Shown here: positions 2,963 through 20,101 of the stretch, piece after piece | How the letters are laid out: the number at the start of each line of letters is the position of its first letter | How positions within the stretch are numbered: the first letter of the stretch is position 1 | Virus record (IMG/VR): IMGVR_UViG_3300025141_000553 | Span: 1 to 28,617 of that record | Length of the DNA stretch: 28,617 nucleotides | From: a virus | Direction: 5' to 3' (one strand) | Made by a program: the position numbers and the translations under genes | The notes under the pieces: generated by a model | The model's input: the letters and a program-made list of their open reading frames with translations, nothing else | What the model was told of the DNA's origin: nothing | Databases searched by the model: none

Positions 2963-4084
2963 TTAATCTTCTGGGTCTACATTATAAAAATTTTCTGCGC
3001 TACCTTCTTTCTTCTCAAACCTCAAAATGATTTCCTCATCCATAAGTTGTAAAACCCTATTTTTGAATTTGTCATCTTTAAGTTTATCTAGCCACCCTGC
3101 TGACTGGAACTTTTCTTCGGTACCGTCTTCATAAGCCAGGGTATACCATGCGCCGCTCTGCTTGATACTGTCAGATATTTTAACTGCCTCAAACCAGCTT
3201 TCCTCATCTTGGATTCCTACGTCGCCACCCCAAACAATTTTAAAGGTACACTCTCTTCCCTCGGTGCCAAAGCGGCTTTTCTTAAGTTTGGCCTTAACTT
3301 CAGACCCAACTCTAAACCCGTGATCATCAAGGAGATACGACGCCTTTGCCTTGCGGCCTGTAAGCCAAATCCTTAAAGAATAGGCGTAGTGCATGGCCTT
3401 GCCGCCGGGGGTCGTATATGGATTAATCATAGCGTCAATCCGGCCGGCGGGGCCTTGTGGGATATTAGTTTTTAGTTGATTAAGAACTAAGAATGTGGAT
3501 TGTGAATTAGCAATTGGAACAGTTAACTTTGACATACCTTTGGCCAAAATTCGAGCCTTGACCGCCATTGATGATTGGGGATTAAAGTCACCCTCAACAT
3601 CGCTAATGGCCGGCGTTAAAGCAAGGCTATCCCATATAAAGAGCATTCTGTTGTCATTGGATCCAAGAAGTTCCTCGATGGTCTCTAACACAAATTCTAC
3701 GCTCTGTGCTTGGACATAGGCCAGCTTATTGATATCACACCCAGCATTTACTAAAAATGTAGGGTCAATCGCTGATTCTGAATCAAAATAAATAACATCA
3801 ATGTCTTTTTCCTGTGCGTTGGCAGCAACTTGTGCGGCCATGTAGGATTTACCAGAGCCCTCAAGGCCTGCTATCTCTACAATCTTGCCCATCGGAACTC
3901 CAGCCAATTGGCCTCTACAGATAATACTATCAAGCCAGCGGGACCCAGTTGCAATCCAGTCCTTCACGGCTGTCGGATTGTCTTTTGTTAAGTTGTGTGC
4001 AACATTAACGCCTGCCTTCTTGTTGATGAGGTTAACCATTTCATTTAAGTTAAGCCTACCGAGCTTCTTGGGTTTCTTTGCCAT
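2963..4084 (-). CDS. uvsX: UvsX RecA-like recombinase
   Basis: A 373-residue strand-exchange protein (T4 UvsX is 391). It would coat single-stranded DNA together with gp32 and drive recombination-dependent replication. Walker A GLEGSGKS is at residues 73-80. The Walker B strand MLFIWDSLAL is at 147-156 with D152. Catalytic-glutamate region FDSESA is at 100-105. The LVLNQLKTN segment with Q203 matches the RecA loop-2 region. The ATG at 4084 is chosen because AAGGA lies just before it and MAKKPKK follows. An in-frame ATG at 4186 would give 34 more residues but would sit almost entirely within the preceding gene. Neighbours are a 117-residue unknown upstream and gp32 beyond it. Confidence 0.93.
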   Translation of the reverse strand: MAKKPKKLGRLNLNEMVNLINKKAGVNVAHNLTKDNPTAVKDWIATGSRWLDSIICRGQLAGVPMGKIVEIAGLEGSGKSYMAAQVAANAQEKDIDVIYFDSESAIDPTFLVNAGCDINKLAYVQAQSVEFVLETIEELLGSNDNRMLFIWDSLALTPAISDVEGDFNPQSSMAVKARILAKGMSKLTVPIANSQSTFLVLNQLKTNIPQGPAGRIDAMINPYTTPGGKAMHYAYSLRIWLTGRKAKASYLLDDHGFRVGSEVKAKLKKSRFGTEGRECTFKIVWGGDVGIQDEESWFEAVKISDSIKQSGAWYTLAYEDGTEEKFQSAGWLDKLKDDKFKNRVLQLMDEEIILRFEKKEGSAENFYNVDPED

Positions 4085-4094
4085 ATTTTGTTCC

Positions 4095-4519: not shown

Positions 4520-5266
4520 TTAAGACGCGAGAAGCTCCTCAAAAGCCTTATCGACAGAGGAATTCGAAGTATTCTCATACTTTGAGGACTCCGTAGATAC
4601 CTCTTCAGCATCCTCCTCACCCAAGAGATGCTCGTCGAGCATGCTTTGGACCTCGCTCGGCGTCTTACGCGCAGATTGAAAAACGGTTTTATAATCTGGT
4701 ACCGAATCTAGTAACTCTGCAATCTTTTCGTCGGCTGCAGCTAGCTTCGACGGCCGACGACGGGGGGTGATAGTAGTCTGCGGAAACTGTGCTCCAGCAG
4801 GCTTACCGTAATTGATGACAAGGTCTGTGCCTTCATCAACATCAGTAATATCGCCATACTCGGGATTAAGTACGAGGTTCAAAAGCTCCTTGTAAGCCAT
4901 CTTACCGTAGCCCCAGAGTCGAACACCTTGGTCCTCTTCGCCACGAACAAGTACCGGAGAGAAGAAGCGCTGTCGTGCAGACAGGTTCTTCGCCATCTTG
5001 ATGCTCTCGTCGCTGCCTTCCTTATAAAGTTGGCGCACGAAAGAATCAAGAGGACAATCCTCTCCAAAATTCTTCTTCGGGCTCAAGAAACCAGAGTTCT
5101 TACCCAGGTTGTAGTGAAACCAATACTCCTTGAACGGATCGCCGTCAGAAGTCGGGAGAAGACGAATAGTAGTCTCTCCATCTTCCGGACGCCAAAAGTC
5201 CTTCTTTCCGCCGCGATTTTCCAAGGCATCGCGTTTTGCCTTCATTCTATCTAAATCTAAAGCCAT
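4520..5266 (-). CDS. 32: Single-stranded DNA-binding protein, gp32 type
   Basis: A 248-residue gp32 homologue (T4 gp32 is 301), which would coat single-stranded DNA at forks and recombination intermediates. The basic N-terminus (DRMKAKRDALENRGGKKDFWRPEDG) matches the cooperative-binding region. The OB-fold core includes TTIRLLPTSDGDPFKEYWFHYNLG and RFFSPVLVRGEEDQGVRLWGYGKMAY. The C-terminal tail (from about 213) is acidic and serine-rich, as expected for partner recruitment, and ends KAFEELLAS. The usual zinc-binding set appears incomplete: H51 and C71 are present, but S62 and D74 fall where family members have cysteine. The codons look more biased than in neighbouring genes, consistent with high expression. 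Start ATG follows GCAGGAG. Confidence 0.9.
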   Translation of the reverse strand: MALDLDRMKAKRDALENRGGKKDFWRPEDGETTIRLLPTSDGDPFKEYWFHYNLGKNSGFLSPKKNFGEDCPLDSFVRQLYKEGSDESIKMAKNLSARQRFFSPVLVRGEEDQGVRLWGYGKMAYKELLNLVLNPEYGDITDVDEGTDLVINYGKPAGAQFPQTTITPRRRPSKLAAADEKIAELLDSVPDYKTVFQSARKTPSEVQSMLDEHLLGEEDAEEVSTESSKYENTSNSSVDKAFEELLAS

Positions 5267-5352: not shown

Positions 5353-6210
5353 TTAAGAAATATTTTCTTCTTGTATCATACTGGCGTAATGCGCCGTGTA
5401 GATATAGTTGTGCTCGTAATCAGTTGAATATATTGCGAAATTCGCACTCACGTTCTCGTCTGAACCTTCGTGAGTAAAATTTCTAATCCTAGATAATAAA
5501 TCTTTTTCTTTATCGAGGGTTTCTTTGTTGACACCAAAGAAGTACCTTTTAATCCTCGGCTTCTGTAAGCCATAGAATAGCCTTTCTTTAAACCCGTCAA
5601 AACTAACCACACCCAGTGTCGCTATTTTGCTGGTCTTGTTGATTTTTGAAAAGGTTGTGAGAAGCGGCTCTGTGTTTTCAAAGACGTTTAGCATATTAAA
5701 TGTGCTGAAAATAATGTTGTTCACATCATTCCAATATTCAGCAATAGACACTTGTTCCAATATTTCCTCAACGCTTTGATTATCGACCACATATAAGCGC
5801 TTAAGCAAATTTGATCTCGCATATTGTTGCAATACGCCAAAGGTAACTTTGTGCTTTAAAGCCGCTTCCTTCGGAAGTGTTCGCATATCTGGCTTAATAT
5901 AGAAGACAGTAAGTTCATTGTTTTTTATTTGCTCCAGTTCGTTATTTTTAATTTGTTCTAAGAACCTCAAGACTATACCAGAAATATTGCCAGACCCACA
6001 TAAAATCACAGTGGTTGGGCCGGCCATGTTCTTTAACTTCAGCTCTTTGTAGTTTTTTTCATAATCCTCGTGGGAATTTTGAGACTCAACTTCGATAAAG
6101 GTGGAATACCCCTTGTTTTCAGCATCAATACAAAAAACACTATATTGTGGTAAATTTTCGAACTTGCTGGCAATTTGGCATCCAGCGTTACCCAGGCCGA
6201 CTATGTTCAT
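5353..6210 (-). CDS. FtsZ/tubulin-superfamily-like protein
   Basis: A 285-residue protein with the layout of an FtsZ/tubulin GTPase, shorter than FtsZ (about 380). The N-terminal strand and phosphate loop MNIVGLGNAGCQIA (1-14) lead to VFCIDAENK (25-33), the position of the NTD segment in FtsZ. ILCGSGNISG (69-78) resembles the tubulin signature GGGTGTG. LTVFYIKPDMRTLPKEAA (100-117) matches the FtsZ strand and loop ending VVTKPF plus the following helix. VVDNQSVEEIL and WNDVNNIIFSTFNML resemble the central helix leading to the activation domain. The start ATG overlaps the polymerase stop codon (ATGA), implying translational coupling. It lies between the DNA polymerase and gp32. An exact tandem repeat of LEQIKNNE (84-91, 92-99) is present. 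Distant or non-polymerising family membership is possible. Confidence 0.68.
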   Translation of the reverse strand: MNIVGLGNAGCQIASKFENLPQYSVFCIDAENKGYSTFIEVESQNSHEDYEKNYKELKLKNMAGPTTVILCGSGNISGIVLRFLEQIKNNELEQIKNNELTVFYIKPDMRTLPKEAALKHKVTFGVLQQYARSNLLKRLYVVDNQSVEEILEQVSIAEYWNDVNNIIFSTFNMLNVFENTEPLLTTFSKINKTSKIATLGVVSFDGFKERLFYGLQKPRIKRYFFGVNKETLDKEKDLLSRIRNFTHEGSDENVSANFAIYSTDYEHNYIYTAHYASMIQEENIS

Positions 6211-7385
6211 GATATTTTTTTCATACTCCCAAAATCCTTCCCAATACTTAAATTAGTTCGCATTTTACCGAAACGCGTCTGTGAGAAACTTGAAATTAAG
6301 CCTTCAATCATGGGTTTGTCCTCTATGCTGAAATCCAGTACGAGACTATCGTGTATACAGAAAGATACAAACGACTTTTTGTTAGTCAACATTTTATCAA
6401 TTTCTATTGCAGATGTTAAGAACATGTCACTTGTTGTGCTCTGAATTAGATAATTAACAGCCTTAGCCTCTGGTGCTTTGATTTTGCGGCCGAAAAGAGT
6501 ATTAACATGGCCATCAATATAATATTGGTTATAAATTTTATCTCGATTAAGATACTCATTTAATTTTTTGTTTTTTGCTTTTGGGTTATAGAGCCAGGAA
6601 AACACCTTTTTCTTTGTTTTATCTCTATCATATTTGCCCTTAAAAATGTTACTGCTAATCCACTCGTGGACATCACCCTCTGGTTGTTGCTGTCCTAAGA
6701 GTCCAAACAACACCCTCAATTCAGCCGCATTGTAATCCAACTCAATAAAACAATCATTTTGTGGCTTTATAGCTGACCTCAACTCTTTGTTAAGAGTCAG
6801 GATAGGAAAGCTACCTTCGCCAGAGGCCAATCTACCAGTTACAGTCGTCCAGGGATTGTAAACAACCCGGGTCGGGCAGTCTTTTACCTTGTTTAACCCC
6901 AAACGGACCTTTTCATTAGTATAGTCAAGGTTTTTAAGGTCAATATTAACCTCGTGAGACTTTATATTGTTCAAAAGCCCTATCAAGTCCCGCATAAAGT
7001 CGTGATTTTCCGGGCGCTGATAAGTACTAAATACATGTTCTGTTATCTTGTTGCGACACTCATAAAAGTCCAATAAGAACTTTTCAGGCACCAGATCATA
7101 GAAACAAACATCAGATAAATTAACCTTGGCCGAGGAGAAGGACTTTAAGAAAGAATTCGCCTTTCTTGTCAGCTTCTGCCAGCGGGGCTTAAGCTCCTCT
7201 GGGCATGCCTGGCCCAATGTTTGGCCCCTGGCCCACAGAATTCCAAAATCTAGATTTTTGGCCTCGAAATTTTTCGAGGGCGCCCAGGTTTTGGAAAGTT
7301 TTAAGCCTGTGGGATTTTGGACTATCTGTCCGTCGTGAAAGATGCCCCTGCACTCGTTCTTGCTGTCTAACACTTGAAAAAGCAA
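6207..7385 (-). CDS. Family A DNA polymerase, compact form without proofreading domain
   Basis: A 392-residue polymerase of the PolA superfamily. The pre-motif TTVTGRLASGEGSFPILTLN (180-199) is followed by motif A ELDYNAAELRVL (215-226) with catalytic D217 and E222. The O-helix R254-K258-F262-Y266 has the same spacing as E. coli R754-K758-F762-Y766. Motif C CIHDS (343-347) has catalytic D346, with serine in place of the usual glutamate after HD. GDVHEW (237-242) matches the conserved D-x-H before the O-helix. The first 170 residues look like a thumb, and no 3'-5' exonuclease or 5' nuclease motifs are visible. The start is TTG at 7385, preceded by AAGGAAAGAG at ideal spacing; no better start exists. 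It is flanked by the 448-residue baseplate-region gene and the FtsZ-like gene. Confidence 0.9.
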   Translation of the reverse strand: MLFQVLDSKNECRGIFHDGQIVQNPTGLKLSKTWAPSKNFEAKNLDFGILWARGQTLGQACPEELKPRWQKLTRKANSFLKSFSSAKVNLSDVCFYDLVPEKFLLDFYECRNKITEHVFSTYQRPENHDFMRDLIGLLNNIKSHEVNIDLKNLDYTNEKVRLGLNKVKDCPTRVVYNPWTTVTGRLASGEGSFPILTLNKELRSAIKPQNDCFIELDYNAAELRVLFGLLGQQQPEGDVHEWISSNIFKGKYDRDKTKKKVFSWLYNPKAKNKKLNEYLNRDKIYNQYYIDGHVNTLFGRKIKAPEAKAVNYLIQSTTSDMFLTSAIEIDKMLTNKKSFVSFCIHDSLVLDFSIEDKPMIEGLISSFSQTRFGKMRTNLSIGKDFGSMKKIS

Positions 7386-7394
7386 ACTCTTTCC

Positions 7395-8741
7395 TTACTG
7401 AATGTTTTTTGTGCCGGTTATGGAGTAATTTACCATTGACGGATTGTCGGCGTGTCTTTTTGCCTCAACCTTTCGCATTTCATACTCGTCATGGCTTATT
7501 CCCTGCCAATAGGCACCCTTGATATTAAATTTAGTAACATGAAAGCCGCGTGTCAAGTCATTTATATATTTTAAGGCGGCGATTTCGCCGAAGAGTCTCT
7601 TTCTCTTAACCGCCTCAACAGCATAAAAATCAAAATTCTCCGGAGTATGTGTATGTCCAGATTCAAGCAGCCTTGTTTTCAAAAGCACTTTCAACCAGTA
7701 CTCATCCATTTCTTCTCCGTCCGTCGGGGGCGCAGATCTTTGAACCTGAACTGTTCTTATGCGCCCAAGCACCTCGTCGTTTAAGTTAAAAGATGATTTT
7801 GTTGACGTATTGCTCTTCTCGCAAATAACATATTGCATTTCTTCATACGTACTAAATTGTGTATAGAAGATCGTATAAAGTTCTATAAACTTATTTCTGA
7901 TATTTAATAACTCATCCAAATAAGCTTTTCTATAGTATGTTTGAAATATGTTCTCGTAACTAACACCCTTATCGTTCATATATTTCTGCGCGCCGTTTAA
8001 AACTCCGCTGTTCTTCTTGTCTAGCAAACCAGATGCGAGGTTATAAACCAGGCGCCATGGCGCATTTTTATCAATCATAAACCCAAATTTTTTAACTTCA
8101 TTGACAAAAAAGAAAAAATTAGGGTCTTTAATATATTTTAAAACCTTAGCATTGTCTTGTAGGCCGAAGCCCTCGGAGGCTATATCTATCATCAGCCCAC
8201 TAGAATACGGAGAGGCGTGGACCGTCGTTATAAAGCCAGTTTTTGTCAAGGGAAACTTATCTATGATACGAATACTATATCGTAAAAATTCCCTAACAAA
8301 ATCCTTAAAGCTGCTTATTTTCTCGTATCTTCTGTTGATGCTTAAGTAGGAGTCAACAAAGTTAGTATACATCTGGTCTATATGATTCCTATATCCGGTT
8401 TCCAGATCACCAGAACTCCACGCTTTCATAACCCTAAGCTTGGGACTATATAGGCCATCTCTGTTGATGAGTCCTGCAGTGCCCACCCTATTAATATTCT
8501 TTTTCATGTCGTCAAAAGCATCGCAAACAAAATCTACTGCAAAGTGGGTTCCCTTGCGGCCACCGTAGATAGTCTTAAGATTGGAATCATCTAATATGAC
8601 AGCATCTCCCTCGCGGTCGACCCTTCCATAAAAAAGATGTTTCCTTTGAATATCAAAATTTTCGACACCAGGAAAATTTGGGTAAAAATCATTTAGATTA
8701 TTCTTAGAATTAAAGATTGCTTCTACTACATTTTGACCCAT
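7395..8741 (-). CDS. Large hypothetical protein, likely virion or baseplate associated
   Basis: A 448-residue protein I cannot assign to a named family. It is rich in aromatic and charged residues, without signal peptide or membrane helices. Segments that stand out are FYPNFPGVENFDIQRKHLFYGRVDREGDAV near 19-47, INRDGLYSPKLRVMKAW near 92-108, and the helical block YLDELLNIRNKFIELYTIFYTQFSTYEEMQYV. The C-terminus includes NIKGAYWQGISHDEYEMRKVEAKRHAD. Its ATG directly abuts the stop of the 942-residue hub candidate, and both are likely co-translated, so a baseplate or tail role is the best guess. It is the last gene before the polymerase. Confidence 0.7.
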   Translation of the reverse strand: MGQNVVEAIFNSKNNLNDFYPNFPGVENFDIQRKHLFYGRVDREGDAVILDDSNLKTIYGGRKGTHFAVDFVCDAFDDMKKNINRVGTAGLINRDGLYSPKLRVMKAWSSGDLETGYRNHIDQMYTNFVDSYLSINRRYEKISSFKDFVREFLRYSIRIIDKFPLTKTGFITTVHASPYSSGLMIDIASEGFGLQDNAKVLKYIKDPNFFFFVNEVKKFGFMIDKNAPWRLVYNLASGLLDKKNSGVLNGAQKYMNDKGVSYENIFQTYYRKAYLDELLNIRNKFIELYTIFYTQFSTYEEMQYVICEKSNTSTKSSFNLNDEVLGRIRTVQVQRSAPPTDGEEMDEYWLKVLLKTRLLESGHTHTPENFDFYAVEAVKRKRLFGEIAALKYINDLTRGFHVTKFNIKGAYWQGISHDEYEMRKVEAKRHADNPSMVNYSITGTKNIQ

Positions 8742-11571: not shown

Positions 11572-11907
11572 TTAATATCCTATATAAAATAAAACAGTCT
11601 CAAGAGGAACTGGTATGTATACCACTTCGCCTAAGCTTAAATGAAATTCAGTAGGTTTTTGATTGTAGAATGCAATGACCCACCACATCTCTGGGTTGTT
11701 ATAATATTCATCTGCTAATTTAAAAAACCTGTCTCCTGTCGACCATATATGTGTAATACTATTAAATTTAGACATGTCATCAACAGACGGATGCTTGAAG
11801 GTGGGTGTATTAAATTGCCTAATCTGATCCATCCCCCTTGTTTTCTTAAGGAACCTCTTATAAACCTCTCGATCATTAAGAAATACTCTTTGGTTTTTAT
11901 ATCTCAT
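11572..11907 (-). CDS. 53: LysM-type baseplate protein, gp53-like
   Basis: A 111-residue protein. The second half, STGDRFFKLADEYYNNPEMWWVI followed by AFYNQKP and LGEVVYIPVP, follows the LysM pattern: a strand-helix start (GDRFFKLA), an aromatic-rich second helix (MWWVIAFYN), then a G-x-V-x-Y-I-P strand. T4 gp53, a baseplate wedge subunit, and the P2 gpX family carry such modules. The protein would help build or close the baseplate around the tail tube end rather than bind cell wall, because it has no export signal or catalytic domain. It lies between the 301-residue tail protein and the hub candidate. The start ATG follows AGGAAAAACTATA. Confidence 0.75.
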   Translation of the reverse strand: MRYKNQRVFLNDREVYKRFLKKTRGMDQIRQFNTPTFKHPSVDDMSKFNSITHIWSTGDRFFKLADEYYNNPEMWWVIAFYNQKPTEFHLSLGEVVYIPVPLETVLFYIGY

Positions 11908-16741: not shown

Positions 16742-19700
16742 TTAATCGTCAAAAGAAGCCCCGCTCCTCGTGATAATAAAGTCAAGTGCGATAAACTCGA
16801 TGGCCCGGGCAGGCTTCAAGAAAATCTTTGCATACATGATGTTTCTGTCAACCAAATCAGGCGTCGTAGTAGAATCATCAAGCATGACCTTGAAATCAGT
16901 CAGGCCGTGGCCGGCTTTTATGCCCTCAAGGAAGGGAATTACACGGCCCTTGAAGCGGTCCCAGGTAGCCTGGATGTTCTGGTCAAAGAGAACTTTAGAA
17001 GCGATTCTAGAAATCTCTTTCTTTGTATGAATAAGAAGTCTTCTCACATTAATCCTGTCCAGAGCAGAAGGAGTAACCTGCAAGGTCTTCTGACCAAAGA
17101 TTACAATGCCCTCAGCCGGGAACGTAGCAATCGGATTGATATTTGCGTCATACAGCTTATCTCTGTTATCAGAAGTCAAGCGTTGTCTAACGCCAACCAC
17201 TGGAAGTCCTGCAGAGCCTTCGCTTAAGCCGCCTCTAGTAAATCCAGCAGGAGCGAACCACACCGCAGATTTGCGCTGCGCACTTGAGAAGGTACCCAGT
17301 GCAACCACTGAAGGTGGCACATAAAGCATGCTGTCAGAGAAGATATCGCGAATCTTCACAAACGGATAGAAGGTGCAGCCATAACTAGAGTTGATGGCCA
17401 TGTCCTTAAATTCGTTTGTCACCGCAGTCACAGACCCCAGGTTGCCGCTATCCGTATCCCCGTCGGCGCGCTCGTGTGGCGGCTTATAGTTGCCTGCAAG
17501 GTCAATAACCGCTAAAGCATCTCCTCGCTCTTCCGCGGCGTTGACTAATTGAGTATTGAGGCTCGTGTTGGTGATACCAGGCATTGCAACCAAATCATAC
17601 TCCAAAAAGTCTTTATCGGCAGCCATATCTACGGCCTTCTTGAGGCTGTAATATGTGCTGTTGGCAGCAATTGTCGAAGTATCCATATAGCTATTTCGAA
17701 GCGGATCAGGCTCGGTTACATCAAACCCATCAAAACCACCGAAGACCGGGGAAGTAAATCTATCAAACCCAGTATCTGAACCGGTTAAGACATAGAATGA
17801 GCCAGATTTAGCAGACCAGGACGTTCCGTCGGCGCGGGAGCCAGAAGCATGAAACCCGTGATCTGTCGCACTTCCGGCGCACTGCTTAACATCTTCCAGG
17901 GTGAATGCCCAAGAATACTGCGTGTTACCAGAAGAAGGATTTCCTAACGGGTCCAATGCTGCCGGCATGCCTCGGAACAGATCTAAATTGGTTTTATCAA
18001 ATCTCTTTGTTCCCTTAACGGAAGAGTTATAACCGAAGTAAGCTTTATTAGCAGTTACCATATTACCTTCTGAAGAAGAGACTCTTAATCTCGCAGTCGG
18101 GAATTTTATAGAGGCTGTAAAAGCGTTGGTCGTGTATACCAAATGGTCTGACCCTATTCCAGTGACAGTATACTGGCCAGGAAATGAGCCACTGCCATCA
18201 GCGAGGAGCGACTGGGTTGAGCCAGAAATAATTTCATGAGTTGCCGGAACCAAAGGACCATACACACCCATTGGCAAAAGGCCTTCGCCCTCAGCATTGG
18301 CAATCGCGTCCGAGACCTTAACACGAATATATTGTGAGCGGTTGTCGTTATCACCAAATTCACGAACAACGTTGTTCGTACTATCGAAATCGTAGTGTTT
18401 ATCTCCAATCACTCTCCCAATATATTTAGGCGATGTGGGCCTTAAGTCGACGCCAGAGAAGCGCTCCAGCACGGTGGGGTTATTGTCACTATCGGCGGAG
18501 GCGCGGACGACAACAGAAAAGGTGCCGTATTGATTGTACTTATCCGTGGGTGGCTTGATGTCTTGAATAGAAATCTTGATGTCGCGGTTTGCAACCTCAC
18601 CGTTGCCCGGGTCCTGGGTGCGTCCAGCGCCACCGAGAGCGTAAAAACGGAATAACTTTTCTACATGTGAAGTAGGGTCAAAGTTCGCAGTCGTCCCGCC
18701 TCGGGTGTCTTGCGAGAAGAACCACTGCGTGCCGGCAGCTTTTGCCGCCTGTTTATGATTGGCCCATTTGTCAACTGCAGTGCTCGATCCCTCAAGAGCC
18801 AAAATCGTTCCTAGGAAGTTCGAGCTATCCGTAGCCAAAGTACCGGTGATAGCAAGCTTGCTATTTTCACCGTTTCTTAGGTTGGACTCAAAAGTTTCTC
18901 CAAGCCAGTAACCGACAGTCGAGCCGGCGGGGGTTACATCTGCGTTTGTCAAAGTGGGATTAGTGTTAAAGACTTTACGAATAAAGTTGCTTGAATCGCG
19001 GTCGAAGCTAAACTTAGCAGTCTTCTCAACGTCCGCGGCGCTATCTAAAACCTTGGCGGTGAAGCTTAAACCACTATCACTTTTAATCCAGGTTGCAGCA
19101 GAGCCCGCGATTGTGGTTGCCTCTCTGGACGTTCCGTCAAGAACGACAGCGCCGTTGTTAACATACCAGACAGCAGCAAGGGTACCCGTAACAGCAGGGC
19201 CGGATCCGCCGGAGAAGGCGCCGTCGGCGCCGGATGCGCCGTAGGCCACGGTGACGCCTGCAGGAGCCGTGACATCTGTGTTACCACCAACCCCTGAAGT
19301 GTCCTGAGTCAACGTAAAGGATGTTTCGCTAGTGTACGACGCAGGAGTGAGTGTCATGTTCAGTGCGCCGTCGGCTCTGGCGGCCTCTAAAGCAATATGT
19401 AGAGCTTGAGTGGCCTTTGCCGCGGTGGTGGCTAGTGCAGTACCAAAAGTCCAAGCATTACCAGCCCCCGTGGGCGCTTGATTATAGTTCATACTATTGC
19501 TAGTAGTGAATGTTAATGTGTCTCCATCAGCATTTATCAAGGTTAATATTGTGCTGTCCTCGTCCTCAAGCGCGTCGGTGCCACCGATTACAACAGTCGC
19601 TGCAGCGGTACCAGGGTATCCATCCGGATTTGGAATAACAAACAAACCATAAGCACCACCAGTCGAAGAAGCATCCGTACCGTGAGAAGTTTCAGTTCCA

Positions 19701-20077
19701 CTAGAGTTTTTAGTACTCCAGCCGGCCTTACCTTTAAGGGTATCGGCGGCAGTCGATGCATCGTCGCCCAAAACACGGAAAACAGTGCAAGGTGAGTTAT
19801 TTCTTAACCAAGCCTGCGCTGCATAAGCAGCATATGTAGGAGCGGTCGCGGCGCCGGTTCGCCAAATATCGCCGGCCGCATTGCCGGCTGAAGGGTACCC
19901 GAAGAGAGAGACAAATTCTTTAAACGAATTAACCTTTACAGGTCTGTTGGCTGGTCCTTTCGTAAAACGACCAATGATCATCGGGCCCATACGCTCTGGT
20001 AGGGCTGGTATGCCTGATTCATCAATCTCGTTCAGAAAGACCCCAGGTGAAATAAATTTAAACTTGTCAACTCCCAT
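16742..20077 (-). CDS. 18: Tail sheath protein, gp18 type, unusually large
   Basis: A 1111-residue contractile sheath subunit; T4 gp18 is 659. The start MGVDKFKFISPGVFLNEID with FTKGPANRPVKVNSFKEFVSLFGYPS matches sheath N-termini. The end is the conserved core: FPAEGIVIFGQKTLQ, then ALDRINVRRLLIHTKKEIS, then DLVDRNIMYAKIFLKPARAIEFIALDFIITRSG. The extra length lies in the middle. Residues about 161-293 form a Thr/Ala/Gly/Asp-rich block (LINADGDTLTF, then FTLTQDTSGVGGNTDV, then GAFSGG) that looks like a surface domain. The ATG at 20077 is preferred over one at 20092 because GAGGAG lies at ideal distance and GVDKF follows. A leader hairpin and promoter candidate lie upstream. Confidence 0.92.
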   Translation of the reverse strand: MGVDKFKFISPGVFLNEIDESGIPALPERMGPMIIGRFTKGPANRPVKVNSFKEFVSLFGYPSAGNAAGDIWRTGAATAPTYAAYAAQAWLRNNSPCTVFRVLGDDASTAADTLKGKAGWSTKNSSGTETSHGTDASSTGGAYGLFVIPNPDGYPGTAAATVVIGGTDALEDEDSTILTLINADGDTLTFTTSNSMNYNQAPTGAGNAWTFGTALATTAAKATQALHIALEAARADGALNMTLTPASYTSETSFTLTQDTSGVGGNTDVTAPAGVTVAYGASGADGAFSGGSGPAVTGTLAAVWYVNNGAVVLDGTSREATTIAGSAATWIKSDSGLSFTAKVLDSAADVEKTAKFSFDRDSSNFIRKVFNTNPTLTNADVTPAGSTVGYWLGETFESNLRNGENSKLAITGTLATDSSNFLGTILALEGSSTAVDKWANHKQAAKAAGTQWFFSQDTRGGTTANFDPTSHVEKLFRFYALGGAGRTQDPGNGEVANRDIKISIQDIKPPTDKYNQYGTFSVVVRASADSDNNPTVLERFSGVDLRPTSPKYIGRVIGDKHYDFDSTNNVVREFGDNDNRSQYIRVKVSDAIANAEGEGLLPMGVYGPLVPATHEIISGSTQSLLADGSGSFPGQYTVTGIGSDHLVYTTNAFTASIKFPTARLRVSSSEGNMVTANKAYFGYNSSVKGTKRFDKTNLDLFRGMPAALDPLGNPSSGNTQYSWAFTLEDVKQCAGSATDHGFHASGSRADGTSWSAKSGSFYVLTGSDTGFDRFTSPVFGGFDGFDVTEPDPLRNSYMDTSTIAANSTYYSLKKAVDMAADKDFLEYDLVAMPGITNTSLNTQLVNAAEERGDALAVIDLAGNYKPPHERADGDTDSGNLGSVTAVTNEFKDMAINSSYGCTFYPFVKIRDIFSDSMLYVPPSVVALGTFSSAQRKSAVWFAPAGFTRGGLSEGSAGLPVVGVRQRLTSDNRDKLYDANINPIATFPAEGIVIFGQKTLQVTPSALDRINVRRLLIHTKKEISRIASKVLFDQNIQATWDRFKGRVIPFLEGIKAGHGLTDFKVMLDDSTTTPDLVDRNIMYAKIFLKPARAIEFIALDFIITRSGASFDD

Positions 20078-20101
20078 GTTTTTGCTCCTCAATGTTAAGC
20101 G

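Follow-up and report, generated by a model that had tools for sequence, protein, structure and literature searches.

The window, the whole 28,617-nucleotide stretch of viral DNA analysed here, carries on its minus strand a gene (5353–6210, ATG start) for a 285-residue protein that is predicted, from an AlphaFold2 model with its Foldseek and VIA matches, to have the tubulin/FtsZ fold. On the same strand, this gene is preceded by that for a short family-A DNA polymerase of 392 residues without an exonuclease domain (6207–7385; PF00476, E 3.6e-15) and followed by genes for a gp32-like single-strand DNA-binding protein (4520–5266; PF08804, E 1.2e-13; phrog_1192, E 4e-27), a UvsX-like recombinase (2963–4090; phrog_97, E 2e-54), an RNase H-type 5'-3' exonuclease (1586–2560; PF02739, E 7.5e-28) and a gp41/DnaB-like replicative helicase (177–1556; phrog_19, E 5e-75). 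Genes for the tail tube, sheath, baseplate and a gp23-like capsid protein lie elsewhere in the window and, together with the gp32-, UvsX-, RNase H- and gp41-like genes, show that the preliminary description was right to speak of a T4-type phage. The adjoining DNA polymerase that it named is also real, but the enzyme belongs to family A and is not the family-B gp43 of T4. Its motifs DYNAAELR and HDS are conserved, with HDS replacing HDE at motif C. Directly upstream of the polymerase gene, a 448-residue protein (7395–8741, minus strand) is conserved across the family and has no family match in Pfam or PHROGs; its naming as gp53 was wrong, the gp53-like gene being that at 11572–11907. The tail sheath protein (16742–20092, minus strand) is unusually long, at 1116 residues, and the sheath family matches its C-terminal part only.

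The ATG of the tubulin-like gene overlaps the stop codon of the polymerase gene by 4 bases, so that the start-stop coupling proposed for the two genes holds. In the H4-S5 loop of the window protein, eight residues (LEQIKNNE) occur twice in tandem, encoded by an in-frame 24-base repeat (5917–5965, minus strand). By reading of the DNA, the two copies are separated by six base differences, all of them synonymous, and the duplicated segment is a low-confidence part of the AlphaFold2 model. The duplication recurs in two relatives from other assemblies (L001 and L030) and is missing from the other relatives aligned; the usual length of the protein is therefore about 277 residues. In one further relative (L039, positions 1858–2673; L131 is the same contig) a frameshift splits the gene.

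The AlphaFold2 model of the window protein, built from 23 relatives, has a pLDDT of 88.8 and a pTM of 0.86. Each of the 50 matches listed by a Foldseek search of the PDB is an FtsZ, a TubZ or a tubulin, the best with E 5.4e-12, and VIA gives Z scores of 24.5 for CetZ, 22.7 for TubZ, 22.1 for FtsZ and 21.8 for beta-tubulin, with residues 1–284 covered. A second model, of L184, which at 25% identity is the most distant relative found, is of still higher confidence (pLDDT 95.2, pTM 0.92); only tubulin-superfamily structures are among its listed matches, with VIA Z scores of 23.4 for CetZ and 22.4 for TubZ. The two-domain GTPase/activation architecture joined by H7 is present in the models. By these models, the product of ORF 5353–6210 has the tubulin/FtsZ fold, and the identity first proposed for it from a few motifs is borne out from end to end by two family members that share only a quarter of their residues.

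Those motifs, GLGNAGCQIA (residues 5–14), CGSGNISG (residues 71–78) and LTVFYIKPDMRTLPKEAA, are present at the places and in the order first described. They are not chance resemblances, because G5, G7, G10, G72, N144 and N164 are kept in 95–100% of 154 distinct relatives, the sample for all conservation counts given here, and because the gene is under purifying selection (dN/dS 0.04–0.18, median 0.078, 106 pairs). The T1-type loop G5-L-G-x-A-G10 (6181–6198; this and the following sites on the minus strand) supplies phosphate-binding glycines, of which G5 is found in 99%, G7 in 100% and G10 in 99% of relatives. The T4-type loop G72-S-G-N-I-S-G78 (5977–5997) stands at the tubulin signature position and is degenerate (G72 98%, G74 88%, G78 90%): the family has G[SAG]G[KDN][IV][SAT]G against the signature GGGTG(T/S)G, and so keeps the glycines at positions 1, 3 and 7 and loses the threonine and central glycine at the fourth and fifth. 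Asn144 of T6 (5779–5781; Asn in 147 of 154) is aligned with the PND loop of FtsZ by hhalign, in an alignment that is low-scoring but in register. Asn164 of H7 (5719–5721), at the guanine-contact position, is Asn in 151 of 154, with an aromatic residue or histidine four positions ahead of it in most relatives, and D29 is kept in 92%. We take the conserved glycine, asparagine and aromatic positions to be the corresponding nucleotide contacts of tubulin and FtsZ. Neither a fold of another kind nor a loss of conserved GTP-contacting residues, the two outcomes that would have spoken against a tubulin relative, was found. Three residues of H5, Q128, R132 and S133 (5812–5829, minus strand), are kept in 154, 154 and 153 of the 154 relatives and are not obvious nucleotide contacts; they form a candidate partner-binding or structural site.

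The C-terminal half of the protein is more unusual. It had been described as lacking a full-length C-terminal domain; a C-terminal domain is present in both models, but it is compact and built without H8, H9 and H11. The activation-domain helices H8 and H9 are not predicted in either model, H11 and the tail are absent from both, and the window protein stops a few residues past its last strand, with no C-terminal linker or FtsA/ZipA peptide. In FtsZ and tubulin, H8 comes after the T7 loop, the element that switches on hydrolysis of GTP in the adjoining subunit. Here the T7-type loop is E178-N-T-E-P-L183 (5662–5679, minus strand), and its acid, E181, is only 74% conserved (Glu or Asp in 114 of 154 relatives, Lys in 20); the equivalent aspartate of PhuZ has been discussed (PMC3678025). 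With the nucleotide loops conserved, H8 missing and the T7 acid not universal, GTP binding by the protein is likely, whereas a canonical FtsZ-like GTPase activity with filament dynamics is doubtful. The earlier caution that the protein may be a GTP-binding, non-polymerising variant is strengthened, because the T7/H8 region appears remodelled.

Sequence searches alone would have missed the fold, as no sequence model matches the protein. The window protein matched no PDB sequence and none of the tubulin or FtsZ models of Pfam, PHROGs and NCBIfam, a PF00091 search of the window record gave no match, and the Pfam and NCBIfam tubulin and FtsZ models were silent for all seven family members tried. 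With a 47-member family profile, hhalign stayed below threshold; a 58-member profile reached a score of 33.2 against PhuZ and FtsZ, with T1 and T4 in register, compared with maxima of 22.2 for 150 column-shuffled templates and 23.0 for unrelated window proteins. The support from sequence is modest and agrees with the fold. Relatives came from IMG/VR, where successive searches gave 8 loci, then 34 and then 414 confirmed stretches, and twelve large contigs have a single copy per record. None was found by tblastn among 50,697 phage records (INPHARED) or in 84,980 GTDB genomes. A profile search, run without an internal positive control, found no homologue in Microcystis phage Mel-JY01 or Rhodothermus phage RM378, which by their capsids are the closest cultured relatives, and the Mel-JY01 gene between a polA-like gene and gp32 does not read as tubulin-like. 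In the open-access literature, which is what our search covered, we found no account of a tubulin from these viruses.

Wherever flanks are present, the locus order is polA, tubulin-like gene, gp32, UvsX, RNase H and helicase. A search by the polymerase alone returned 80 loci, 78 of which have the tubulin-like gene downstream of polA; the remaining two end 49 and 284 bases past polA, and the gene pair is thus kept in 78 of 78 testable polymerase relatives. Of 142 pairs, 68 have overlapping genes, and most gapped pairs examined have a gene for a MazG-like pyrophosphohydrolase or another short ORF between them. One such insert (L032, 7689–8000, with its like in many of the gapped pairs) encodes a putative MazG-like nucleotide pyrophosphohydrolase, YNKLVRDRIPEII..., named from its motif. 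Distances between the tubulin-like proteins co-vary with those of polA (r 0.81), gp32 (0.81) and UvsX (0.78), as they would if the module were inherited vertically. What the linkage shows is that the genes are inherited and expressed together, not that their products are physical partners.

The polymerase itself has no cultured-phage match by tblastn. In the large contigs of relatives we found neither a family-B polymerase nor a DNA_pol_A exonuclease domain (DNA_pol_A_exo1), and the short family-A enzyme is therefore probably the replicative polymerase of these viruses. A gp45 clamp domain was likewise not found in large relatives, in a search that had no working phage positive control and in contigs that may be incomplete.

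The placement of the gene between those for the polymerase and the single-strand DNA-binding protein points to a tubulin-family protein that acts together with the replication machinery. Taken with the computed fold, the conserved nucleotide loops, the purifying selection and the strict linkage to the short family-A polymerase, this placement is best explained by a minimal and divergent phage tubulin that belongs obligatorily to the replication module and probably serves there as a GTP-binding scaffold or a polymerase accessory. We rank the scaffold first, tentatively, as the likeliest single reading but one that is somewhat more apt to fail than to hold. The protein would bind guanine nucleotide, be made jointly with PolA and act at replicating phage DNA, where it would most likely self-associate head to tail in a GTP-dependent manner, into short filaments or patches by which replication complexes are brought together or positioned. 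Such assemblies would probably be more static than those of FtsZ or PhuZ, because the T7/H8 hydrolysis-trigger region is remodelled. Against the scaffold stand the absence of H8, H9 and H11 from both models, the incomplete conservation of the T7 acid and the degenerate T4; in addition, the protein's correlation with gp32 and UvsX is about the same as that with polA.

Ranked second, and on balance unlikely though a serious contender, is a GTP-binding, non-polymerising accessory of the short polymerase, acting as a nucleotide-dependent switch or as a processivity or targeting factor, much as thioredoxin serves the T7 polymerase. The strict one-to-one linkage with an exonuclease-less polymerase argues for such an accessory, as do the negative searches of large relatives for a family-B polymerase, DNA_pol_A_exo1 or gp45 clamp domain and the absence of the canonical polymer-side helices H8 and H9 from the models. 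However, the clamp result carries the limits given above, the co-variation with gp32 and UvsX is about as strong as that with polA, and about half of the pairs have inserted sequence, often a gene, between polA and the tubulin-like gene. That the replisome of a large uncultured group of T4-type viruses has the protein as an obligate member, serving the family-A polymerase as a GTP-dependent accessory or scaffold, is a possibility to which we give appreciable but clearly minority weight; we know of no tubulin relative with such a role.

Well behind these two comes an improbable reading, that of an anti-division factor, a decoy for capping or poisoning the FtsZ polymers of the host. A conserved nucleotide face beside a remodelled T7/H8 face is what a one-sided cap would look like, and phage inhibitors of FtsZ such as lambda Kil are known (PMC3961180), but identity to FtsZ is only about 9–13% over structural alignments, and a position in the replication module with vertical co-inheritance is unlike that of typical host-takeover genes. 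Slightly less probable again is a TubZ-like partition motor that segregates replicated phage genomes in the infected cell. TubZ ranks near the top of the structural matches (Z 22.7 for the window protein, 22.4 for L184), and phage partition by TubZ is known from work cited in PMC7824862; however, no TubR-like neighbour or tubC-like repeat was noticed at the loci, H11 and the C-terminal tail are lacking, and nothing in the T4-type gene set points to persistence as a plasmid. That the protein is no tubulin at all but a nucleotide-binding protein of Rossmann/TrkA-N-like type whose loops are similar by chance, as weak TrkA_N matches to its N-terminal glycine motif might suggest (best E 0.0009), is very improbable and already contradicted by the fold searches, in which two confident models have listed matches in the tubulin superfamily, C-terminal domain included.

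By fold and nucleotide site the protein belongs to the tubulin superfamily, and by their defining features it is neither an FtsZ nor a PhuZ. Its best structural match is CetZ (rmsd 2.8 over 256 residues), yet identity is 14%, the CetZ chain has 342 residues against 285 here, and there is no profile match; CetZ has a role in cell shape in archaea and is not a phage replication gene. TubZ of Bacillus plasmids and phages aligns over 275 residues and shares a context of extrachromosomal DNA, but at 17% identity, and the phage protein lacks the H11 and C-terminal tail of TubZ and has no TubR gene noticed alongside; no tubC-like array repeats are found near the tubulin-like gene, whose neighbours are replication genes. 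With FtsZ the protein shares the fold and the T1, T6 and H7 contacts, but only 10% identity, and it has no C-terminal linker or peptide, no H8 or H9 in the models and no universal T7 acid.

PhuZ (phiKZ gp39, 201phi2-1 gp59) is likewise a phage-encoded member of the superfamily, with the profile similarity described above; that it is not among the structural matches listed is no argument against this likeness. It is longer, at 315–327 residues, and has a C-terminal H11 and acidic tail, whose role has been described (PMC3678025) and which are absent here in sequence and models. The genomes of PhuZ phages carry genes for chimallin and for a multisubunit RNA polymerase; in nine relatives of 147–190 kb neither chimallin nor the RNA polymerase beta family was detected by sequence, with phiKZ and 201phi2-1 positive as controls, and these viruses are therefore, as far as can be judged at that level, not PhuZ-type nucleus-forming phages. 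The known phage tubulins, PhuZ and TubZ, position or segregate DNA. In the PhuZ genomes examined, PhuZ is not a neighbour of replication enzymes and lies about 8–10 kb from the polymerase gene, whereas the tubulin-fold gene described here sits inside a replication operon; it occurs in more than 400 IMG/VR stretches, its polymerase in more than 580, and it is never missing where this can be checked. The tubulin superfamily would extend to a smaller, stripped form, and genome organisation here ties a DNA polymerase to a cytoskeletal fold.
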